NCBI RefSeq assembly: GCF_014279815.1
Contig: NZ_CP047941.1
Location: 372,001 to 436,000 of the forward strand
Source: Synechococcus sp. NOUM97013
Lineage (GTDB): Bacteria; Cyanobacteriota; Cyanobacteriia; PCC-6307; Cyanobiaceae
Direction of reading: 5' to 3'
DNA: 64,000 nucleotides
Shown here piece after piece: positions 3,222 to 16,072 of the stretch (position 1 is its first letter; each line of letters opens with the position of its first letter). Below the pieces are notes generated by a model. That model searched no databases. It saw nothing but the letters and a program-made list of their open reading frames with translations, and was not told the origin of the DNA. The position numbers were made by a program, and so were the translations under genes.

Positions 3222-5049
<1,828 letters not shown>

Positions 5050-5075
<26 letters not shown>

Positions 5076-5703
5076 CCGATCGGAGAGGTTGATTCGCAGT
5101 CTGCGTCTTCAACCTCTCCTCGTTGTTTTGCGTCCAGACGCCAGCGACTTCCAATCAGCGTTGCCTCACACCCGTCTCTGTCGTCAGCTGGATCAGCTGG
5201 CAGAGGCGGGTGTTCTTCATGTGGAGCTGGCCTGGACTGCCGACCCTCGCTGGGCCGATCTGGTGATGGCCTTGAAGTGCCGTCATCCCCAGTTGCAGAT
5301 CGGTGCTGCCTCGATCACAGAGCTGTCTGCCCTCGAGCGAGTTGCTGAGCTCGACATCAGCTATGCCATGTCTCCTTTGCTGGATCCAGCACTTCAGGTC
5401 AGAGCGGATGCGCTTGATTGCTTGCTGGTGCCAGGTGTGATGACGCCATCCGAGATTCGCCAGGCCAGCAAGCTTGGCTGCCGGTTGGTCAAGTTGTTTC
5501 CGGCCAGCGTGCTCGGTTGCGGGTTTCGTCGCCAGATTGCTGCGCCGATGGGTCCGCTTCCGTTCTTGATTGCGGCAGGAGGGCTGCGAGCGGTGGATCT
5601 GTCCCCATGGCTCCGCGCCGGCTATGACGCCATTGCTCTGGGGCGAACGGTGTTCGAAGACGACCGGCTGGACCCCTCCCTGGGCGCGTGGCTCAACCCA
5701 TAA
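5050..5703 (+). CDS. eda: KDPG/KHG aldolase family protein
   Basis: The product belongs to the class I 2-keto-3-deoxy-6-phosphogluconate / 4-hydroxy-2-oxoglutarate aldolases, which cleave KDPG to pyruvate and glyceraldehyde 3-phosphate. The 217-residue TIM barrel has the Schiff-base lysine in RLVKLFPAS (Lys148), a conserved Glu in HVELAW (Glu59), and the phosphate-binding C-terminal GG and ALGRTVF segments. The start ATG lies inside the last codons of ftsH (26-bp overlap in another frame), which suggests translational coupling. Whether a full Entner-Doudoroff pathway exists cannot be seen here, since no edd is present, and a different 2-oxoacid substrate is possible. Confidence 0.85.
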
Positions 5704-5755
5704 GTGGTAGTCCTGAGACTCATCTGCTACACCTGAGATAGATATTGCGTCACTG

Positions 5756-6412
5756 ATGTCTCAGTTATCCATCAAGTTGAGCGATAAGGCTGATGCCTTA
5801 ATCGCCCAGTTGCAGAAGGAGATCTTCAATCGACGGCGAAAGAAGGTCACCGCTGCCGGTGTTGTCGAGACTCTTGTTGAGAGTGGTGCCCGCTCGCAAT
5901 CCGACAAGCGTTTCGCCACCTCTTGGGTCAATCTGATCCAAGACATCGAAAAGGCGGCCAAGCTTGCCAATGCGCATGGCAGCAAACCGTCGACACTGAC
6001 GGATGAAGAGTGGGTGATGGTGCTCAGCCATCGCAACCGTCAGGCTGCTGCCAAGCCCGCGCGCAAAACCGGTTCCAAGCAGCGCACGGCCCCAACAAAG
6101 TCAGCAACGAAGACGACGTCATCGCGCAAGTCTGCTGCCAAAACAACGACTGCTAAATCAACAACAGTTCGCGGCGCCAAAAAAGCCTCGAAAACCAGCG
6201 CATCGAAGGTTGCTGCTGCAAAGAGTGCCCCAGCGAAGACCGCGTCTGCCAAAACCACCGCATCTGTGGCATCAGCAGGCAAGCCGCGACCCGCGCGGAG
6301 AGCGCGTAAGGCCACCAAGTCCGCGTCAGTTGGCTCAGCAGCCGGCCGCATGGCCAAGGCTGTCGCTCAGCTCGCCAGTGCCAACGGCATCAGCTCACCC
6401 GCACGGAGCTGA
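5756..6412 (+). CDS. Histone-H1-like basic protein with conserved N-terminal domain
   Basis: The product is 218 residues in two parts. Residues 1 to about 95 form a compact alpha/beta-looking domain (start MSQLSIKLSDKADAL, later FATSWVNLIQDIEKAAKLA) that resembles small DNA-binding or ribbon-helix-helix-like domains. I cannot name the family. Residues from about 98 to 200 are a low-complexity Lys/Ala/Ser/Thr tail with repeated AAKS, AKTT and SAKT units, like eukaryotic histone H1 C-termini and bacterial H1-like proteins. The last 20 residues become less basic (MAKAVAQLASANGISS). Binding to DNA or RNA through the tail is inferred from composition only. The gene stands alone between eda and the convergent aroC. 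Confidence 0.75.
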   Translation: MSQLSIKLSDKADALIAQLQKEIFNRRRKKVTAAGVVETLVESGARSQSDKRFATSWVNLIQDIEKAAKLANAHGSKPSTLTDEEWVMVLSHRNRQAAAKPARKTGSKQRTAPTKSATKTTSSRKSAAKTTTAKSTTVRGAKKASKTSASKVAAAKSAPAKTASAKTTASVASAGKPRPARRARKATKSASVGSAAGRMAKAVAQLASANGISSPARS

Positions 6413-6434
6413 TGCGCTGCGTGGAGTGCTCACT

Positions 6435-7523
6435 TCACCAGAGGCTGCACTGGCCTTGCTGTCTCAGCAGATGATCGGCCAGCACCAGATTCACCATCGC
6501 TTCCACCATCGGCACGGCCCTTGGCAGCACGCAGGGGTCGTGACGTCCTTTAGCGGCGAGGGTTGTGGCCTCCCCCTTGTCGTTGATGGTCTGCTGCTCC
6601 TTGCGGATCGTGGCGGTGGGTTTGAAGGCCACGCGGATCACGATTGGCTCACCGTTGCTGATGCCGCCCTGAATGCCACCGGAATTGTTGGTGGCTGTGC
6701 GCAGTCGACCGTCGTCGCTCGGTAGGAAAGAATCGTTGTGCTCGCTGCCTTTGAGTTGTGTGCCGGCAAAGCCGGATCCAATCTCGAATCCTTTGGTCGC
6801 CGGCAATGACATCACTGCCTTGGCCAGGTCGGCTTCCAGTTTGTCGAACACCGGCATGCCCAGGCCCACCGGTGGACGATGGACCACGCATTCGATCAGC
6901 CCACCGCAGGAATCTCCCTCCCGGCCAATGGCCTCGATGCGTTCGATCATCCGGTCCGCCATGACGGGATCGGGACAACGCACGATGTTCGCTTCCACGT
7001 CATCTCTGCCGACGCTGTGAATGTCGACGCTGGCCTCCAGGTCGTGAATGCGTTTCACCCAGGCCACCACCTCGGTGCCGTGTGCCTTGAGCAGCATCTG
7101 TCGAGCGATGGCTCCAGCCGCGACGCGCCCAATTGTTTCGCGCGCTGATGCGCGGCCACCGCCACTGCGTGCCTGAATGCCGTATTTGGCCTGATAGGTG
7201 GCATCCGCATGGGATGGCCTGAAGGCCACTTCCATCTCCTTGTAATCCTGCGGCCGCTGGTCTTTGTTGCGCACCACCATCGCGATCGGTGTTCCCAGCG
7301 TCATGCCATCCATGACGCCGCTGAGAATTTCCACCTGATCGGCTTCCTTGCGTGGTGTCGTGATGCGACTTTGGCCAGGCTTGCGTCGGTCCAGTTCAGC
7401 CTGGATGGCGTCCCGGTTGATTTCCAGCCGCGGTGGACAACCCTCCAGGATCACGCCAACCCCGCCCCCGTGGGATTCCCCAAAGGTGCTGATACGGAAC
7501 AGGGTGCCGAAACTGCTGCCCAA
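6435..7523 (-). CDS. aroC: Chorismate synthase
   Basis: AroC forms chorismate from 5-enolpyruvylshikimate 3-phosphate using reduced flavin, the last step of the shikimate pathway. The 362-residue product has all family signatures: GESHGGGVG near residue 16, [28 protein letters not shown] (about 119-131), and a C-terminal [16 protein letters not shown]. Length and motif order are normal. In marine picocyanobacteria aroC commonly neighbours psbA (my recollection of their gene order), but here about 4.5 kb of other genes intervenes. It converges on the H1-like gene with only 22 bp between stop codons. Confidence 0.97.
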
Positions 7524-7557
7524 TGGAATGCCTTCACTGGCATGAGCGTAAGAGAGC

Positions 7558-8061
7558 TCAGATCAGCGCGTTCAAGGCCCCAGCTGGGTGTTGGTCAGAG
7601 GGACGGTCTCGCAGCATCTCGAAGTCACCAAAGTCGAAGCCTGGCCCGACGCAGCAGCTCACCAAGGAGTACTGACCTTCCGCACGGGCTGCCATCCAGT
7701 GCCCGGCTGGAACCGCATGCACCGGTTGGTGCAGAGACAGCACGGTTTGTTCAGCCACGCCACCTTCTGGTTGCAGTGTCCAGAGGCTCAAGGGCGAGCC
7801 TTGAAGGTGTGTCCAGACTTCGTCAGCGTGGTGAACGGCATGCCATCGGCTGATGGAGCCTGCATCCAGCAGATAAAGGATCGTGGTGATGGCTGGGCGT
7901 TGCTGGCCATCGTTTCGCTGAACCGACAGTGCGCTGCGGTGCAACTCCTTGAACCAGCCACCCTCCGGATGAGGAGTCAGTTGCCACTCGCGGATCAGCT
8001 GATCCACCACTTGTTGGGGTGATCGCGTCGAAGTGGTGGTGTCCGGGGACGAGTCAGGCAT
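7558..8061 (-). CDS. DUF985 / cupin_5 family protein
   Basis: The 167-residue product resembles the DUF985 family, a single-domain cupin of unknown chemistry. Family-like features are [43 protein letters not shown], the [20 protein letters not shown] segment, and [13 protein letters not shown] near the C-terminus. The motif HPEGGWFKE with the HxxHADEVW stretch is the usual metal-site region, but bound metal and substrate are unknown. ATG at 8061 starts MPDSSPDTT; an upstream in-frame codon at 8124 adds 21 residues that look non-conserved. The next gene downstream on the same strand, aroC, begins about 35 bp on, so co-transcription is possible. Confidence 0.85.
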
Positions 8062-8249
8062 CAGTTCGGAGTTTTCGCAAAGCGCATCCGCTTCCAGAAG
8101 AGCCTGACCTCGTCGTGAGTGCAACCCATTGATCCATCAGCTTCTCCGGCGGCGTCACGCGAAGGTTGGGTACCAGAGCAGCAGATCAGGCTGAAGGCAA
8201 CGCTGTTGGGATTCATCGGGTTTCCTGGCGATGTGTTTTGTTTGGCAAC
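8062..8249. other. Intergenic stretch, no gene supported
   Basis: About 190 bp between the DUF985 gene and the transporter gene. Short open frames exist on the plus strand (8119-8343, 8166-8351), but they run antisense into the transporter gene and have no recognisable domain or good ribosome binding site. I see no terminator, RNA gene or repeat. Confidence 0.4.
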
Positions 8250-9137
8250 TCAGTTCGCTTCGGATGTTGCTGGATTGTTGGATTGCAGACCCCGTCGCCA
8301 AAGGATGAAGGGAAGGATGGTGACCGTCATCAGCACGCCGTAGACCGCTGAAGGCAAGCTGAAGCTGTTCAGCTCTCCCTGCGTCAGTGCGGGGCCAAGC
8401 AAGGACCCGACGACGATACCGATGGTTCCGTTTTGAAAGCCCGCTTCAATGGACAGGGTTGTGGTCTGAGCTGTGGGCAGCTGCAGCAAGGCGCCGAGCG
8501 CGAGTCCGATGGTCAGCATGAGCAGATTGAGGCTCAGCAAGGTGGGACCGATCACCGAAAGATTGGAGGTGAACACGTTCCATTGGCTGGTCAGGGTCCC
8601 GACCACGATCAGCAGGAACAGCAGATTGGCCAGTCGACTGGCCGTCGGTTCCACACGTCCGCAGAACTGGGGTGCTTTCTGCTTAAGCCAAACCCCGATC
8701 AGCACCGGCACGGTGGCGATTGAAAACACCTTCAGGCTGAGCGGCAGGATCGAAATCTCCAGGGCTTGATTCGGCATGAACAACGGTGCTGTGACGCCAA
8801 GAATCAGCGGCAGGCTGATGGCTGTGAACAAACTGGCGAGCGCGGTGAAAGAGATCGATAGGGCGACATCTCCACGTGACAGGCGCGTCATCACATTGGA
8901 GGTGATACCACCTGGGCAGCAGCTCAGAATCATCACGCCGACGGCCAGTTGGCCATTCAGCCCGAATAGGCGCAGCAGGATGAAGGCCACTATGGGAAGC
9001 ACAATCACCTGGGCCAGTGCACCGGCCAGCAGTGCACGTGGTTGTCGGAACGCCCGCGTGAAGTCCTCTGGTTTGAGGGACAGACCCAGGCTCAGCATGA
9101 TGAAAGCCAGGCCGACGGAAAGAATGAGTTCGATCAA
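8250..9137 (-). CDS. Bile acid:sodium symporter (BASS) family transporter (TTG start)
   Basis: The product is a 295-residue integral membrane protein with about nine hydrophobic segments, typical of the BASS/NTCP family of sodium-coupled organic anion transporters. Two signatures are clear: LSCCPGGITSNVMTRLSRGD near residues 71-90, and the second Na+-site crossover region EAGFQNGTIGIVVGSLL near 230-247. Substrate cannot be inferred; plant and cyanobacterial relatives move pyruvate, bicarbonate-unrelated organic acids or glucosinolates. The first possible start is TTG at 9137, because an in-frame stop lies two codons upstream; the next Met is at residue 14-15, inside the first helix. Members often act as single genes, and nothing nearby indicates a partner. 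Confidence 0.9.
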   Translation of the reverse strand: MIELILSVGLAFIMLSLGLSLKPEDFTRAFRQPRALLAGALAQVIVLPIVAFILLRLFGLNGQLAVGVMILSCCPGGITSNVMTRLSRGDVALSISFTALASLFTAISLPLILGVTAPLFMPNQALEISILPLSLKVFSIATVPVLIGVWLKQKAPQFCGRVEPTASRLANLLFLLIVVGTLTSQWNVFTSNLSVIGPTLLSLNLLMLTIGLALGALLQLPTAQTTTLSIEAGFQNGTIGIVVGSLLGPALTQGELNSFSLPSAVYGVLMTVTILPFILWRRGLQSNNPATSEAN

Positions 9138-9218
9138 GGACTATCCAGCTGTGCAAAAACTTCGGGGAAGACTAACTGTGGTCCTCCAAACAGCCAATAA
9201 GGCTTGCAATCAAAGTCT

Positions 9219-10553
9219 TTACTGCTTTGCAAGTGCGTCTAAATGCGCGTGAAAATCATGCCAGTCACGACGAACTTGTTCTGCATAAGGTTGTGACACT
9301 GAGCGCACGAAATATTGGAATTCTGAGGGTTGATCATGCGCGATGAGATTGAGTTTATCCTCGAACGTGGATGTTGTTTGATGGTTGGTGAGACGCCGTG
9401 CTGCTCTTCGGTGTTTTAGAGCAAGCACCTCTCCCCACTGCTTCGCCATCAGGAGAAATGCTTTGGAGGAAAGTTGTGTTGTGTCAAAGTCGCGCTTGTA
9501 AGGACAGCGCTCACGGATGGAATAGCTTTCATGTTCGAGGTTGAGCCATCCCAGATGATGATCTGGGAAATCAGAGAGTGCCCTATAGGCATCGGCATGA
9601 CGGATGGCGTGACTTGAGAAGTTCTGGTTGTATTCGTCTGTTTCCTCTTGGCTCATGTATCCATAGGCTGTGGGTTGATGTTGAAGTTTGATGTCCAGGA
9701 TGAAGTCATGCTCCTCTGAATCCTGATCCGTTTCACGGATCAGGGCATAAAAGCGTTGATTACCCAACGAGCCTGTGCCTGCCCCGATGCGTTCAGCAAC
9801 ATCAAGAATTTGCATGCGGCTTTCAGAAAGCTCGAGGCCTGCGGATTCATCGTGGTGTTTTCGATAACTTTTGAGAGCGTCCCTTAATTGTTCACTACGC
9901 TGCCCGTCAAGGGGCTTGACTTTGCTCGGGTTGGGCTTGAAAAGACGATTTTCTGAGCCGATTGTCCATTTTTCGAGCATTTTTCTCCTCGAGCTTTTCT
10001 TCTCAGTTTTTTTTAGAAAATCCGATAGTGGTTTGCAGGTGTTGTTTGAGGTAAACGTGGTTGCAAACAGTTTTTCTGCTTTCACCGTTTTCTGGAAGCT
10101 CTTTAAATAAGAGCTGGAAAATGCATCGAGGGCAGTGCTGATTGTTTCTGTGTCGTAGAGCTGGCGTTCCCAGCAGTCGAGCACGATGCTCGTTGAGAAC
10201 CGCCAAATGTCATATTGATAGTCGGCAACAAGCGAATCGTCGAAATCGTCAAAGCCAAAGCAGACCTTTTCGCCTTGATGCTTGAAGGCGCCCATGTTGT
10301 AGACATGAGAATCGCCTTGAAGCCATGTTCTGGACCATGCAGCTCCTCCGAATTGATGGAGTCTCCAGGACCCTGCAAAATCTGCCCAGAACAAATGATT
10401 GGTTCCACGATAAAAAATATAAGGGGATTGAGCCATCTTCTGAAATTTGATCCGCTTCGGCTCCTCCGGGAGATAAGAATTTTGGGCCCGAATTGCTTCT
10501 AGGATTTTGCCGTTTCGGTCATAGCTTTTTGATTTGCCAATCAGGTCTTTCAT
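9219..10553 (-). CDS. DUF2252 family protein
   Basis: The 444-residue product belongs to DUF2252, uncharacterised soluble proteins with a kinase-like look. Family features are the N-terminal MAQSPYIFYRGT (about 40-51), GDSHVYNMGAFK (about 80-91), and FGFDDFDDSLVADYQYDIWR (about 98-118). The HxxN and DDFDD motifs resemble catalytic-loop and metal-binding acids of aminoglycoside-phosphotransferase-type folds; that comparison is my inference. Base composition is visibly more A+T-rich than the flanking photosynthesis genes, with runs such as TTTTTTTAG near 10010, which suggests a later arrival. It reads away from the decayed psbA end at 10622-10765. Confidence 0.85.
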   Translation of the reverse strand: MKDLIGKSKSYDRNGKILEAIRAQNSYLPEEPKRIKFQKMAQSPYIFYRGTNHLFWADFAGSWRLHQFGGAAWSRTWLQGDSHVYNMGAFKHQGEKVCFGFDDFDDSLVADYQYDIWRFSTSIVLDCWERQLYDTETISTALDAFSSSYLKSFQKTVKAEKLFATTFTSNNTCKPLSDFLKKTEKKSSRRKMLEKWTIGSENRLFKPNPSKVKPLDGQRSEQLRDALKSYRKHHDESAGLELSESRMQILDVAERIGAGTGSLGNQRFYALIRETDQDSEEHDFILDIKLQHQPTAYGYMSQEETDEYNQNFSSHAIRHADAYRALSDFPDHHLGWLNLEHESYSIRERCPYKRDFDTTQLSSKAFLLMAKQWGEVLALKHRRAARRLTNHQTTSTFEDKLNLIAHDQPSEFQYFVRSVSQPYAEQVRRDWHDFHAHLDALAKQ

Positions 10554-10926
10554 GCGGGTGCCTCCTCTGCCTTTTCTGCTGTCGTTCTAGCTAGGAGCGT
10601 TCCAAGGGTTGGTCTTGACGCCAACAAAAATCCCCCTTTGGGGAGAAGACTTCCCGATTGAACCGAAGCTGAATCTCTTTCCGATTTCAACCTCAGGCTG
10701 TTTCGAGCAATCGATGGTTGGAGCTTGCAGAGCCAAAGGGCTGGACTCAGCAGCAGCCCGGTCGACGGAAACGGAAAGAATGAGTCGATCAAGCTCGATG
10801 CAGCCGTTTGCGAGGGAGCAGGTCAAGTGCGGACGCATGAATCCATCAAAATGTCGAGCTGACGGCTCGGTGGGTCAAAAACTTGCTCTTTAAAGAAGAC
10901 GCTCTACAACCAGTGAAAGAAGCGAC
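10554..10926. other. 373-bp intergenic region holding a psbA 3'-end relic
   Basis: No gene is supported here. Two minus-strand frames (10550-10792 and 10587-10838) exist only because of the psbA relic described separately. Outside the relic, the flanks (10554-10621 and 10766-10926) show no recognisable element. Confidence 0.6.
10622..10765 (-). pseudogene. Decayed duplicate of the psbA 3' end and terminator
   Basis: On the minus strand this segment matches the end of the intact psbA at 11987-12115. Two blocks align well by eye. Block 10720-10765 matches 12070-12115 at 42 of 46 positions and encodes the D1 C-terminal extension (AAAESSPLALQAPTI here, [15 protein letters not shown] in psbA). 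Block 10654-10676 matches 12018-12040 at 22 of 23 positions in the 3' untranslated region. Between them the relic has about 14 extra bases and has lost the stop codon. Beyond them a CCCC-AAA-GGGG hairpin followed by ATTTTTGTTG mirrors the psbA terminator tail. Nothing upstream of codon ~340 of psbA is recognisable. Confidence 0.85.
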
Positions 10927-11883
10927 TTATTGGCAAAATTGGGCATTGAGTAAAGATGCCCGTTGGTCGCCGAGTGAAGCCGCTTTGCCAAGATCGACAC
11001 AAGCCTCTGCTTCGTTGCCGAGTCCACTTCTGGCGATGGCGCGGTTGACGTAGAAGTTGGCAAAGTTGGGTGCGATCTGAATCGCCTGATCAAAATCCTG
11101 GATTGCTTCCTGATAGCGGCCAAGATCAGATAGAGAATTGCCTCGATTTCCGTAGGCAATCGCCAGAGTGGGCTGAAGCTTAATGGCTTTCGTGTAGTCG
11201 TTAATTGCAGATTTGTTGTCCCCTAGTGCTCTGCTGATGGCGCCTCGATTCACATAGGCAATTGTGAGGCTTGGATTGATTTTTATGGCCTCGTTGCAGT
11301 CTGAGAAGGCATCTTTGAGTTGCCCTAGATTTAATTTTGCGGCGCATTTGTTGGCATGTGCCATGGCAAGGCCCGCATCTAAGGTCAATGCTTTATTGCA
11401 ATCACTGAGGGCGGATTGGTATTGCCCCAGTGATACCTTGGCGCTGCATCGGTTCAGGTAAGAAGGGGCGAAGGCAGGTCCTTTCTCAATGGCGCGATCG
11501 CAATCCTTTTCGGCCTCAGAGAAATCACCCAGTTTTAACTGAATTGAGCAGCGGTTGTAGTAAGCGATGGCCAGAGAAGGATCAATCTGGATGGCCCTGT
11601 TGCAATCATTCCAGGCTTTTTCGTAGTAGGAAGCGTCGGCCGTGGCTTCGGCAAGCTGGGTGTATGCACCACAGCGATTCATCAGTGCGACTGCATGATT
11701 TGGATTCTTTTGAATGATGCGATCGAAGGTCCGAATTGCGGCTGTGTAATCGCCGGCCAGAAATTCCTGAAAGCCTCGCTCCACTTGCTGATCGCTTTGA
11801 GCATGGCCTGGCAGATGTGCCATGCAAGCTGTTGCGACAACAGCAAGAGAGAGAAAAGATCTAAGGATCAGAGGTGTGTGCAA
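10927..11883 (-). CDS. Secreted TPR-repeat protein with a regular cysteine ladder
   Basis: The 318-residue product starts with a signal peptide (about 1-29, hydrophobic LILRSFLSLAVVATACMA, likely cut after GHA), followed by seven to eight tetratricopeptide repeats of 34 residues. Several repeats carry NRC at helix A and DCN/DCD near helix B. Cysteines at 112, 128, 146, 162, 180 and 196 alternate by 16 and 18 residues; C71 and C94 belong to a longer first unit. Such pairs could form disulfides in the periplasm or lumen (inference). The start is TTG at 11883, since an in-frame stop lies shortly upstream and the next Met would remove most of the signal peptide. The gene sits between psbA and the psbA relic. 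Confidence 0.85.
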   Translation of the reverse strand: MHTPLILRSFLSLAVVATACMAHLPGHAQSDQQVERGFQEFLAGDYTAAIRTFDRIIQKNPNHAVALMNRCGAYTQLAEATADASYYEKAWNDCNRAIQIDPSLAIAYYNRCSIQLKLGDFSEAEKDCDRAIEKGPAFAPSYLNRCSAKVSLGQYQSALSDCNKALTLDAGLAMAHANKCAAKLNLGQLKDAFSDCNEAIKINPSLTIAYVNRGAISRALGDNKSAINDYTKAIKLQPTLAIAYGNRGNSLSDLGRYQEAIQDFDQAIQIAPNFANFYVNRAIARSGLGNEAEACVDLGKAASLGDQRASLLNAQFCQ

Positions 11884-11988
11884 GATCTTTGCTGATATTT
11901 TTCGACTCTATTCATCAATCTGATTTGTGCAAGAGGGATGACTCGACGATTGATCGTTGAATCCCCTCGAGTGGTCCTTAACACACAA

Positions 11989-12017
11989 CAAAAAGCCCCC
12001 TCGTGAGAGGGGGCTTT
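11989..12017 (-). terminator. Rho-independent terminator of psbA
   Basis: Read on the minus strand, GAGGGGG pairs with CCCCCTC around a four-base loop, extended by AAAG/CTTT, and ends in CTTTTTGTTG. It lies about 40 bp after the psbA stop codon. Confidence 0.9.
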
Positions 12018-12056
12018 CCGATTCAACCGAAGCTGAATCTTTTTGAGACTTCAGCC

Positions 12057-13136
12057 TCAGCCGATGGCGGGAGCTTGCAGAGCCACAGGAGTGGACTCAG
12101 CAGCAGCCAGGTCGAGGGGGAAGTTGTGAGCGTTGCGCTCGTGCATCACTTCCATGCCGAGGTTGGCGCGGTTCAGCACATCAGCCCAGGTGTTCAGGAC
12201 GCGGCCCTGACCATCAAGGATGGACTGGTTGAAGTTGAAACCGTTCAGGTTGAAAGCCATGGTGCTGACGCCCAGGGCAGTGAACCAGATGCCAACGACA
12301 GGCCAGGCAGCCAGGAAGAAGTGAAGGCTGCGGCTGTTGTTGAAGGAGGCGTATTGGAAGATCAGGCGACCGAAGTAACCGTGGGCAGCCACGATGTTGT
12401 AGGTCTCTTCCTCTTGGCCGAACTTGTAGCCGTAGTTCTGGGACTCGCTCTCGGTGGTTTCACGCACCAGGGAGGAGGTCACCAGGGAGCCGTGCATGGC
12501 GGAGAACAGGGATCCACCGAACACACCTGCGACGCCCATCATGTGGAAGGGGTGCATCAGGATGTTGTGCTCAGCCTGGAACACCAACATGAAGTTGAAG
12601 GTGCCAGAGATGCCCAGGGGCATGCCGTCAGAGAAAGAACCCTGACCGAAGGGGTACACCAGGAACACGGCGGAGGCAGCAGCCACGGGTGCGCTGTAAG
12701 CAACGCAGATCCAGGGGCGCATGCCGAGGCGGTAGGAGAGTTCCCACTCGCGGCCCATGTAGCAGAAGATGCCGATCAGGAAGTGGAAGACAACCAGCTG
12801 GTAAGGACCGCCGTTGTACAGCCACTCATCGAGAGAGGCAGCTTCCCAGATGGGATAGAAGTGAAGGCCGATGGCGTTCGAGGAGGGCACAACAGCACCA
12901 GAGATGATGTTGTTGCCGTAGATCAGGGAGCCAGCAACGGGCTCACGGATGCCGTCGATGTCGACGGGGGGTGCTGCGATGAACGCAACGATGAAACAGG
13001 TGGTGGCAGCCAGCAGGGTGGGGATCATCAGCACACCGAACCAGCCCACATACAGGCGGTTGTTGGTGGAGGTGACCCACTCGCAGAAGGACTGCCAGCC
13101 ATTGGCGCCGGAGCGCTGCTGAATGGTGGTGGTCAT
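12057..13136 (-). CDS. psbA: Photosystem II reaction center D1 protein (Glu130 form)
   Basis: D1 binds P680, the pheophytin, QB and most ligands of the manganese cluster. The product has the standard 359 residues and five membrane helices, with conserved sites including the YZ-His region, QB-loop [17 protein letters not shown], and the C-terminal [18 protein letters not shown] processing region. Residue 130 is Glu (YMGREWE), the feature of the high-light D1:2 type; low-light D1:1 forms have Gln130. A promoter and a strong terminator flank the gene, so it is probably monocistronic. Marine Synechococcus usually carry several psbA copies; only one intact copy is in this window. Confidence 0.98.
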
Positions 13137-13201
13137 GAGAACGGGAAAGAATGTCTCCGAGGAGACGGTTTATGGAAGGGCAGGAAGCCCTGCCAAGCCG
13201 G

Positions 13202-13231
13202 AGTGTAAAGCAACATTGCGGAACGTGTCCA
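13202..13231 (-). promoter_or_regulatory. Predicted psbA promoter
   Basis: On the minus strand TGGACA (-35, 13226-13231; five of six consensus bases) and TACACT (-10, 13202-13207; four of six) are separated by 18 bp. This predicts a transcript start near 13195 and a leader of about 55-60 nt before the psbA ATG at 13136, a plausible size. The assignment is by eye. Confidence 0.5.
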
Positions 13232-13311
13232 CAGCTTTATGAAGCTGATGTGAAGAACCGTTGAGCCGGCGCTCCGGCGCTCTAGCTGAGGTGCTTGTTA
13301 GCGTCCGAGCC

Positions 13312-14928
13312 ATGGACGGAATCACTCACCAGCCAGCGTTACCAGTTCTGAATGATCCGTCAGATGAACGGGTGCTTCTTGTTCGTCTGCCTTGCAATCC
13401 CATCTTTCCGATCGGCCCGATTTATCTGGCCGATCATCTGCACAAGTGTTTTCCCGGAATGCCCCAGCGCATCCTGGATCTCGCTGCCTTGCCGGTGCTG
13501 GACGTGCACCGCGTGCTGCGCATCACCATCGATCAGTTCCGTCCCACGCTTCTGGTCTTCTCCTGGCGAGACATTCAGATCTATGCCCCGGTGGATGGGC
13601 GTGGTGGCAACCCATTGCAGAACTCTTTTGAAGTGTTCTATGCCCGCAATCCTCTGAAACGGCTGCATGGGGCCCTCGGTGGTCTGCGGTTGATGACGAG
13701 CCACTACGGAGAGTTGTTCCGCAATCAGACGCTGGTGCGCCAAGGCGTCAAACGGGCGCGGCGCCATCACCCCCAAGCCCGCGCTGTGCTGGGTGGGGGT
13801 GCCGTCAGTGTTTTTTACGAGCAGCTGGGGCGTTCACTGCCGAAAGGGACCATCGTCTCGATCGGAGAAGGAGAGCCTCTCCTTGAAAAGCTGATTTGCG
13901 GTCAGTCAATTCATTCCGAGCGTTGTTTCGTTGTTGGCGAATCCATCCGACCGGGGTTGATTCATGAGCAGCCAGAAAGCCGCCCCAAGACAGCCTGCGA
14001 TTACAACTACATCGCCTCGATCTGGCCCCAGCTCGATTGGTACCTCGAAGGAGGCGATTTTTACGTGGGTGTGCAGACCAAGCGCGGCTGCCCTCACAAC
14101 TGCTGTTACTGCGTTTACACCGTGGTTGAGGGCAAGCAGGTGCGCCTCAATCCCGTGCAGGAGGTGGTTAAGGAGATGCGACAGCTCTATGACCGGGGCG
14201 TGCGCGGCTTCTGGTTCACCGATGCGCAGTTCATTCCCGCTCGGCGTTACATCGAAGACGCCAAAGAGCTGCTCCGCGCCATCAAAGCTGAGGGACTGAC
14301 CGGCATCCGTTGGGCGGCCTACATCCGTGCCGACAATCTCGACCCCGAGTTGGCTCAGCTGATGGTCGAGACCGGCATGAGCTATTTCGAAATTGGGATC
14401 ACATCGGGTTCACAGGAACTCGTTCGCAAGATGCGCATGGGATACAACCTGCGCACGGTGCTCGAGAGCTGCCGGATGCTTGCTGATGCCGGATTCCGTG
14501 ACCACGTCTCGGTCAACTATTCGTTCAACGTCATTGATGAGCGCCCGGACACGATTCGTCAGACCGTGGCTTACCACCGTGAACTCGAGCGGATCTTCGG
14601 CGCCGAGCAGGTGGAGCCGGCCATCTTCTTCATTGGCTTGCAGCCCCACACGCACCTGGAGCAATACGGATTTGACCAAGGGCTGATCAAGCCGGGCTAC
14701 AACCCAATGAGCATGATGCCCTGGACCGCACGCAAGCTGCTCTGGAATCCTGAGCCGATGGGAAGCACCTTCGGCCAGGTTTGCCTTGAGGCCTTTGACC
14801 GCAACCCCTCCGATTTCGGGCGCACGGTGATGGATCTGCTGGAACGGGACTACGGAGAAGCCCCGCTCAACGAAGCTCTCCGCGCCTCACTTCATGGTCG
14901 TGCTGCTTTGGCTAAAGCTGTCAGCTGA
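13312..14928 (+). CDS. Radical SAM protein with N-terminal cobalamin-binding-like domain, divergent from psbA
   Basis: The 538-residue product has two domains. Residues 20-215 resemble the B12-binding-type Rossmann domain often placed before radical SAM cores (LPCNPIFPIGPIYLADHL, LVFSWRDIQIY, AVLGGGAVSVF, SIGEGEPLL). The usual cobalamin DxHxxG motif is not evident. Residues 250-470 form the radical SAM core with the [4Fe-4S] motif RGCPHNCCYC (Cys260, 264, 267). The fold suggests methyl transfer, ring chemistry or oxidative modification, but the substrate is unknown. It is divergent from psbA across about 175 bp. ATG at 13312 is chosen; a TTG at 13261 would add 17 residues. Its 3' end overlaps the convergent CPBP gene by 37 bp. 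Confidence 0.85.
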   Translation: MDGITHQPALPVLNDPSDERVLLVRLPCNPIFPIGPIYLADHLHKCFPGMPQRILDLAALPVLDVHRVLRITIDQFRPTLLVFSWRDIQIYAPVDGRGGNPLQNSFEVFYARNPLKRLHGALGGLRLMTSHYGELFRNQTLVRQGVKRARRHHPQARAVLGGGAVSVFYEQLGRSLPKGTIVSIGEGEPLLEKLICGQSIHSERCFVVGESIRPGLIHEQPESRPKTACDYNYIASIWPQLDWYLEGGDFYVGVQTKRGCPHNCCYCVYTVVEGKQVRLNPVQEVVKEMRQLYDRGVRGFWFTDAQFIPARRYIEDAKELLRAIKAEGLTGIRWAAYIRADNLDPELAQLMVETGMSYFEIGITSGSQELVRKMRMGYNLRTVLESCRMLADAGFRDHVSVNYSFNVIDERPDTIRQTVAYHRELERIFGAEQVEPAIFFIGLQPHTHLEQYGFDQGLIKPGYNPMSMMPWTARKLLWNPEPMGSTFGQVCLEAFDRNPSDFGRTVMDLLERDYGEAPLNEALRASLHGRAALAKAVS

Positions 14929-15740
14929 CCCACAAGCAGCAAACTCAGGGCTGTGATTCCCACAACTCCGCCCAAGGGATTCGCATGAAGTCCCCCGGGA
15001 CCAATCAGCCACTCCGGTGCACTGGGCGAAATCTGCAACAGTCCAGCCCGCAGGGCGAACCAACCGCCAACCAGGCCTCCGTGAAGGCCAACACATCCCC
15101 ATAAAGACCCCCCATCCAGTCGACGCTGCACCGCAAGCACCAGACCTAGAAGCATGAGGCCTGTCAGCAGCCCGATCATCGGCAGGACCCCTTGATCGAA
15201 GCGGGTATGCACCAAGCTGAAAATGACCGCCTGACCAATCACTGCGATACGGCTGCCTGCGATTTCGTTCAATTCGCCCCAGAGCCATCCTCGGAAAAGC
15301 AGTTCTTCCGCCAGGCCAACCCCGAAGCAGAGCAAAAGCGCATTCAGGACGTCTCCGCTGGTGAGCTCTCCAAGCCACCGGCCCCATGACCCAAAGATGA
15401 GTGGAACGCTGATCAGCACCAAGAGGCCCACGGAGCGCAGCAATCCATAGGCCAGACAAACAGCGCCAGAGGGCTCTCCCCTGCGACTGCGCAACCCCAG
15501 CGTCAACCAGGGATGGCGACTGTTCCAGCGCTGCCGCACCCAGCTCGGCAGCAGAAGAATGAACAGCAGCAGGCTCTCGATCGTGCCGATCAGCGACAGC
15601 CGTGCCGCCGAGGTTTCAGGCAGCACCTGGGCCAGGGGCTGTGCCAGCAGCCAACCCAGCCCGTAGAGCAACGGAATCAGCAACAGAGTTGCGATCCAGC
15701 GAGGACGTGCCTGGAGCAGCCGTCTCCAGGTCTTCACCAT
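14892..15740 (-). CDS. CPBP family intramembrane metalloprotease (CAAX/Abi)
   Basis: The 282-residue product is a polytopic membrane protein of the CPBP family (CAAX prenyl protease 2 / bacteriocin-processing type). The catalytic motif is EELLFRGWLWGEL, the typical EExxxR, followed by a second motif around FSLVHTRFDQGVLPMIGLLTG with the conserved His and by VGLHGGLVGGW with another. Six to eight hydrophobic segments are visible. In cyanobacteria the family has many members of unknown substrate. ATG at 15740 (MVKTWRRLLQ) is chosen; an upstream codon would add 31 residues without membrane or domain features. It is probably in a short minus-strand run after clpS (11-bp gap). Confidence 0.88.
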   Translation of the reverse strand: MVKTWRRLLQARPRWIATLLLIPLLYGLGWLLAQPLAQVLPETSAARLSLIGTIESLLLFILLLPSWVRQRWNSRHPWLTLGLRSRRGEPSGAVCLAYGLLRSVGLLVLISVPLIFGSWGRWLGELTSGDVLNALLLCFGVGLAEELLFRGWLWGELNEIAGSRIAVIGQAVIFSLVHTRFDQGVLPMIGLLTGLMLLGLVLAVQRRLDGGSLWGCVGLHGGLVGGWFALRAGLLQISPSAPEWLIGPGGLHANPLGGVVGITALSLLLVGQLTALAKAARP

Positions 15741-15751
15741 GACAGGAACGA

Positions 15752-16072
15752 TCAGTTTTCCGGCTCGATGCTGCTGGTCAGGCCCTTGCCCTTCAGCGTT
15801 TCGCAGTAGAACTCCGCCGGCTCGAGATCGCACACGATCACGAGGCCAACCCCGGTGTTGTGGGCTTCCAGCATCACCGCCATGCAGTCCTGTTCACTCA
15901 GCTGAGGAACCACCTGACGCAGAGTGGTGACCACGTATTCCATGGAGTTCACGGGGTCGTTGTGAAGCAGCACCTTGTAGCGGGGCGAGCGCTTGCGCAC
16001 CCGCTCCGTTTCTTTGTCGAGAACCGCGGCTCCACCGGGTTTTGCGCTGGGGGACTCCACTGCCATCGCCAT
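15752..16072 (-). CDS. clpS: ATP-dependent Clp protease adaptor ClpS
   Basis: ClpS delivers N-degron substrates to the ClpAP/ClpCP protease. The 106-residue product contains the core fold with YKVLLHNDPVNSMEYVV (about 32-48), the segment that binds N-terminal hydrophobic residues, and EAHNTGVGLVIVCDLEPAEFY near the C-terminus. The N-terminal tail (about 1-30) is unstructured-looking, as expected. Two Met codons, at 16072 and 16066, are plausible starts. The gene lies between dapL upstream and the CPBP protease downstream. Confidence 0.95.
   Translation of the reverse strand: MAMAVESPSAKPGGAAVLDKETERVRKRSPRYKVLLHNDPVNSMEYVVTTLRQVVPQLSEQDCMAVMLEAHNTGVGLVIVCDLEPAEFYCETLKGKGLTSSIEPEN

Follow-up and report, generated by a model that had tools for sequence, protein, structure and literature searches.

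Probable stranding of a psbA 3' end by an inserted TPR gene at the aroC-linked psbA locus of Synechococcus sp. NOUM97013

The stretch of DNA analysed here, referred to as the window, comprises 64,000 nucleotides of Synechococcus sp. NOUM97013 (genome G000; G000:C1:372001-436000). Its aroC-linked psbA locus contains an intact psbA gene, an ORF encoding a D1 protein of 359 aa (12057..13136, reverse strand), which is preceded by a PhotoRC-I leader motif (13153..13195, reverse strand; Rfam RF01716, 64.5 bits) and followed by a 3' UTR and terminator (11986..12056, reverse strand) delimited by alignment, fold and stem. The fixed 5' neighbour of psbA, present at 18 of 18 such loci, is a radical SAM gene on the forward strand (13261..14928; NF045585 rSAM_slr0320, E 7.6e-294); it is of the slr0320 type, a family named for photosystem II high-light acclimation. 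Downstream of psbA, and like it on the reverse strand, lie a TPR-repeat gene of 318 aa (10927..11883; Pfam TPR_1, E 2.4e-46), the segment that is the subject of this report, a DUF2252 gene (9219..10553; Pfam PF10009) and a sodium/bile-acid-type symporter gene (8250..9137; Pfam PF01758), the last of which directly follows psbA at the aroC locus of G002, G004, G011 and G023.

The segment at 10622-10768 (reverse strand) is a 5'-truncated, decayed psbA 3' end that lies 1.35 kb from the intact psbA and retains about 18 codons together with the 3' UTR and a terminator that has weakened. A repeat finder divides it into two blocks shifted by 14 nt relative to each other: the stranded 3' UTR with its decayed terminator (10622..10696, reverse strand), 80% identical to 11986-12060, and the final ~18 psbA codons (10712..10768, reverse strand), 88% identical to 12062-12118, from which the stop codon is gone according to the alignment. 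The first-pass annotation had recognised a decayed psbA end near the intact gene, with the TPR gene between them, and this is real: its identity counts of 42/46 and 22/23 came out the same when recounted by eye, and alignment against shuffled sequence, the check that it proposed, gave a local alignment score of 122 with the intact psbA, far above all of 2000 dinucleotide shuffles (mean 16.7, sd 2.6, maximum 32). A whole-genome search with the intact psbA 3' end as query also recovers the remnant (E 2.2e-24). Chance similarity as the origin of the psbA-like segment is refuted by this score together with flanks that are collinear with a related genome (see below), and its probability is practically nil.

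The remnant retains a terminator-like stem of 5-6 bp and the same TTTTTGTTG tail as the intact gene, as had been described from the sequence. Its predicted fold is no better than that of shuffled sequence (z -0.68), against z -5.4 to -6.2 for three intact psbA copies, and the remnant contains no Rfam-type RNA element, the three matches other than PhotoRC-I being far under their gathering scores. It is 82% identical to the D1:1-type psbA of the same genome and 75% to the neighbouring intact psbA. An ORF of 83 residues (10587-10838, reverse strand) crosses the remnant in the psbA frame together with a spacer relic next to it; this chimeric ORF is probably meaningless.

The best match to the remnant outside the window, among 31 genomes of the genus searched, is found at 369226-369416 in G013 (E 8e-45), the closest relative, where an intact psbA 3' end continues into the DUF2252 gene with no fragment present. 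At this locus G013 has the order psbA, DUF2252, symporter with a single psbA, and has neither the TPR gene nor a duplicated psbA end there; the gene-order comparison between aroC and psbA that the first-pass annotation had suggested yielded in G013 a locus without the inserted TPR gene. Collinearity with G013 holds separately for window positions 6002-10768 and 11986-14500, and the two tracts abut or overlap in one G013 psbA 3' end (L037), so that the window can be described as this site plus a 1.35-kb insert and a duplicated psbA end. Since the psbA-DUF2252 junction of G013 is also the best match to the remnant, these alignments are best read to mean that the segment once formed the 3' end of the aroC-linked psbA itself and was stranded when the 1.35-kb insert cut it off. 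The sequence between the stranded terminator and DUF2252 (10564..10621, reverse strand) aligns with the psbA-DUF2252 spacer of G013 and is probably the native spacer.

An ortholog of the inserted TPR gene (84% aa identity) occurs in G013 only, so that the gene is present in 2 of the 31 genus genomes; at the family level, 2 of 400 genomes carry it at E<=1e-60. It is located behind the aroC-linked psbA in G000 and behind the D1:1-type psbA in G013, and the window genome's own D1:1 locus consists of psbA followed by gap2, without a TPR gene. Window positions 10864-13124 are collinear with the G013 D1:1 psbA-TPR region at 88.8%; this includes the psbA-TPR spacer (11884..11985, reverse strand), which by alignment is of the kind seen behind the G013 D1:1 psbA, and a 3' flank of the TPR gene (10864..10926, reverse strand), which by sequence match is common to the G013 D1:1 locus. 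Nucleotide identity between G000 and G013 is 86.0% for the TPR gene, 87.3% for the symporter, 89.1% for DUF2252 and 87.5% for upD11. As the divergence of the TPR gene is close to that of the other three, relocation fits better than two recent acquisitions, and the comparison fits a TPR gene that was present in the common ancestor of G000 and G013 and then moved. On the far side of the TPR gene in G013, sequence comparison found no psbA piece, a point against the reading preferred below as regards one border there.

Both junctions of the insert can be reconstructed. Behind the remnant lies the psbA-DUF2252 flank of G013, and behind the intact psbA lies the flank that G013 has between its D1:1 psbA and TPR gene. 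Adjoining the remnant on its upstream side, 10771-10833 is similar to a psbA-symporter spacer followed by the symporter start, with a score of 61 against at most 27 in 2000 shuffles. Its first part (10771..10807, reverse strand) is a relic of the symporter 5' end, matching 9115-9152 (E 1e-4), and its second part (10808..10833, reverse strand) a relic of the psbA-symporter spacer; the whole of 10771-10833 matches 9154-9217 of locus L053 in G023 (E 5e-9). At the other border of the insert this relic symporter start is fused to the psbA piece, and the two sequences set side by side have a TCGRCCTGGCT-type microhomology at their junction (10757..10768, reverse strand). The approximately 30 nt at 10834-10863 had no match among the sequences fetched. 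An origin of 10771-10807 from the 5' leader of psbA was considered and rejected, as only a short motif is common to it and the psbA leader, and the symporter start and spacer match better. Joining a psbA-TPR-symporter arrangement with a psbA-DUF2252-symporter arrangement, in one step or via a tandem duplication, would give junctions of the kind observed.

The DUF2252 gene has a different history. It is present in 2 of the 31 genus genomes, and it lies directly behind psbA, without a duplicated psbA end, both in G013 and, at 70% identity, in G090, a member of another genus. Judged from its position in these genomes, DUF2252 is probably a separate and earlier arrival than the TPR insert at the same psbA end. 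The first-pass annotation had proposed, as one possibility, that recombination at the psbA 3' end brought in both genes; the proposal is supported for the TPR gene, given the uninterrupted site in G013 and the TPR gene behind another psbA there, and is not supported for DUF2252, which stands directly behind psbA in G013 and G090.

Our preferred reading, to which we assign a probability of about 0.78, is that the native psbA 3' end was stranded when a TPR cassette was inserted by way of psbA. On one side, psbA 3' homology would have let RecA-type recombination between psbA copies of near-identical sequence bring in the cassette; on the other, the join would have been closed by the short microhomology of symporter start and psbA 3' end, whether in a single step or through a transient tandem duplication. 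Cut off from any active psbA, the stranded end would then have escaped gene conversion and decayed. The order of events, the involvement of RecA-type recombination and the choice between one and two steps are all inferred from the sequences. Conversion is also suggested for the intact gene: the tract at 11980..13279 (reverse strand) is 100% identical to the G000 psbA copy at 2027.6 kb, 1300 bp without a difference. This second copy is followed by a 68-residue metallophosphatase relic (L040 7371-7574), at a position where the gene is intact in G013 and G002.

A 14-nt block in the UTR bears on the source of the psbA part of the remnant. The block is present in the remnant and in the D1:1 psbA of the window genome, and is missing from the two identical G000 copies and from the three G013 copies. 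It also occurs in a solitary psbA end of G002, whose intact copy at that locus is without it. As the remnant has this block in common with the D1:1 psbA, its psbA part could be of D1:1 type rather than native; such remnants would either keep an older UTR or have psbA parts derived from a D1:1-type copy. Later conversion of the intact copies is an alternative explanation for the distribution of the block.

Besides the window, solitary psbA 3' ends were found in G002 (L062), G004 (L041), G005 (L048) and G013 (L039), each on the far side of cargo located behind a full psbA. From gene content, we take G005 to be RS9916, G002 to be WH7803 and G001 to be CC9311. The solitary end of G013 turned up only in a fetched stretch and was absent from the genome-wide list, so more may have been missed. 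The ends in G000 (window position 10768) and G004 (L041, ~12934) begin at the same psbA base, at about codon 342, and a deletion border in G002 lies there as well. The partial psbA of G005 shares 99.5% identity with a psbA at another locus, against 93.3% with the two adjacent copies, which points to exchange between loci. No solitary psbA 5' end was accepted: the G007 fragments adjoin 100-N gaps and were therefore not counted as remnants, and psbA pieces at contig ends of draft genomes were set aside. Of 16 such pieces checked, 15 lie at the edge of a contig or close to it; the remaining one, in G017 (C44 8341-8369), is internal to its contig and matches the 3' coding end of psbA over 29 nt. 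G025 carries a solitary psbA 3' end of 44 codons (L063 6727-6930); the 13 kb fetched there contain no psbA, and the end has a gene for a fatty acid desaturase on its downstream side and a tRNA-like ORF on its upstream side. Two divergent psbA genes, in G003 (1328157-1329224) and G019 (1263466-1264533), share 81% identity with the window D1, and comparable copies of 72-83% occur in other genera.

Outside the genus, no solitary psbA 3' end was found in 40 psbA loci of 12 genomes. One candidate (G160, L163 5963-7038) proved on inspection to be a psbA copy that is frameshifted close to the end. Copies of psbA broken by frameshift or deletion were seen in three genomes of other genera (L163 5963-7038; G111 2611962-2613037; G118 1919331-1920309).

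A second psbA in tandem, lost in situ except for its 3' end through deletions that proceeded from the 5' side, with the TPR gene between both copies, would leave a similar picture, and the first-pass annotation had named a lost tandem copy as one possible source. Tandem psbA copies with cargo between them do occur, at this psbA locus or another, in G001, G002, G004, G011, G012, G022, G023 and G024, and the solitary 3' ends, with lengths that vary from about 75 to 413 nt, look as if shortened stepwise. Against this, no psbA leader or 5' coding sequence precedes the remnant (only one PhotoRC-I motif is present in 9000-13500), the symporter start is found there instead, and G013 has a single psbA at this locus. 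We regard decay in place as unlikely; a tandem stage may nevertheless have been passed as an intermediate. An integrase or transposase island with the psbA 3' end as attachment site, by analogy with islands at tRNA genes, would account for the anatomy of an intact gene and a 3' fragment around cargo, which is the trace left by integrase-type integration. This is very improbable here, given that 5000-16000 contains no tRNA, that no recombinase was seen among the ORFs between psbA and aroC, that the repeat is long and imperfect, and that the solitary ends are of unequal length.

A cyanophage psbA that recombined at this site and left a fragment, an exchange that had also been raised at first pass, is extremely improbable. 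Cyanophages carry psbA, and 508 phage records match the 3' region of the intact gene, but, among the 20 of 24 records listed, phage matches to the remnant are confined to 56-61 nt of coding sequence, most of them at 77-79%, and do not extend to the UTR or flanks. The TPR and DUF2252 proteins were not found in the viral contigs searched, and the best matches to the remnant are Synechococcus genomes.

The stranding of a psbA 3' end by an inserted cassette was set in the context of the three loci at which psbA occurs in the genus. The aroC locus has the radical SAM gene upstream and aroC downstream (both 18/18), the third locus a small putative lipoprotein gene upstream and DUF389 downstream (both 18/18), and the D1:1 locus a DUF697 protein gene upstream (19/19) with HIT (14/19), KatG (11/19) and gap2 (11/19) downstream. 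The gene content from psbA to the far anchor is variable, and several downstream families are found at more than one locus: metallophosphatase at D1:1 (7/19) and the third locus (6/18, one being the relic of the window genome); HIT at D1:1 (14) and the third locus (5); the symporter at the aroC (6) and third (1) loci; SBP/glycine-transporter-like genes at the aroC (2) and third (2) loci; PyrF/E-like genes at all three (3, 1 and 1); and, at two loci each, SDR (1 and 2), FUSC (1 and 1) and TPR (1 and 1). An unsupervised count over 4.5-kb flanks of 55 loci from 19 genomes placed 7 of the 32 families found downstream at two or more psbA loci, compared with none of the 21 families found upstream, the upstream zero being partly given by construction, since the locus classes are set by the upstream gene (three marker families). 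The difference has a one-sided Fisher p of 0.022, calculated over genomes that are not independent. The count omitted 11 psbA-derived ORFs and four additional psbA copies that lacked a marker gene (G008 L097, G024 L091, G025 L078 and L079), and at 7 of the 55 loci the upstream flank was shorter than 4.5 kb. The far anchors aroC and DUF389, each present at 18 of 18 loci, give independent support to the locus classes. Genes resembling mpeZ, involved in chromatic acclimation, are located behind the D1:1 psbA in G008, G009, G025 and G028 and at the aroC locus in G005, and are accompanied by fciA/fciB in G009 and G025.

Repeated psbA recombination would explain why the same downstream genes are found at different psbA loci between strains. 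We give about even odds to a wider reading, in which the psbA copies of marine Synechococcus act as a dispersed homology platform maintained by gene conversion, the three loci retain their 5' neighbours and far 3' anchors while whatever lies from the psbA 3' end to the anchor is swapped among them as cassettes, the chromatic-acclimation island included, and solitary 3' ends are worn right-hand arms that keep older versions of the 3' UTR. If this pattern is true, a highly expressed, conversion-homogenised photosynthesis gene would serve as a docking site through which ecologically relevant genes move inside a strain and from one strain to another, with no need for a dedicated mobile element. 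Outside the genus (40 psbA loci, 12 genomes), the upstream radical SAM and lipoprotein genes are each present in 12 of 12 genomes and the DUF697 gene in the 10 genomes with a fetched D1:1 locus, while 5 of the 40 loci have no marker; in G101, G127 and G039, the third psbA is followed by genes of DUF985 type (43-51%). A family-wide version of cassette exchange is disfavoured for the metallophosphatase, as none of the 25 out-of-genus loci fetched for its relatives has a psbA within about 1.5 kb.

Islands inserted at the 3' ends of tRNA genes regenerate the gene end on one side and leave a fragment on the other. Unlike these, the psbA locus of the window has no tRNA (5000-16000) and no integrase was seen, and the process at psbA would depend on homology and not on a specific site. 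The psbA family of marine Synechococcus, as Garczarek et al. are said to have reported in ISME J in 2008, comprises one D1:1 and several D1:2 copies that are kept alike through gene conversion and form recombination hotspots; the window genome, likewise, has several psbA copies.

The closest known system, in the excerpts of Humily et al. 2013 consulted (PMC3877281), is the CA4-A island of RS9916, which is preceded by a complete psbA and followed by a partial psbA. The same excerpts state that the location of the island varies between clades, that psbA and hli form hotspots of homologous recombination within the genome, for which Garczarek et al. 2008 is cited, and that the partial psbA is 100% identical to the complete copy (PMC3877281). 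Like this island, the window locus consists of an intact psbA, cargo and a partial psbA, with the full psbA (12057-13136) on one side of the cargo and the partial psbA, in the same orientation, on the other; as in the island, the cargo is missing from the same site in a relative (G013) and lies at different locations in different strains. Unlike the island as excerpted, the window cargo is a single TPR gene, the remnant is about 18 codons long and 75-82% identical against the 100% of the paper, and both the uninterrupted site in a relative and the other location of the cargo are known. Even in G005, likely RS9916, we find 93.3% identity to the adjacent copies, and complete identity would characterise a young case and is no mark of the island type as such. 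The window instance, its empty site and its 3' polarity were not found in the literature searched, in which no further paper on such psbA islands turned up, and the 3' polarity of psbA cargo exchange may be new. What the window adds is a dated, reconstructable psbA insertion, for which the empty site, the cargo inserted there, the other location of that cargo and the two junctions are all available, and the wider pattern, if true, would explain why the CA4-A island is not found at one fixed location (PMC3877281). As far as these excerpts go, the psbA hotspot and a partial psbA beside an island are already published (PMC3877281), and the case in the window is a decayed instance of that kind.
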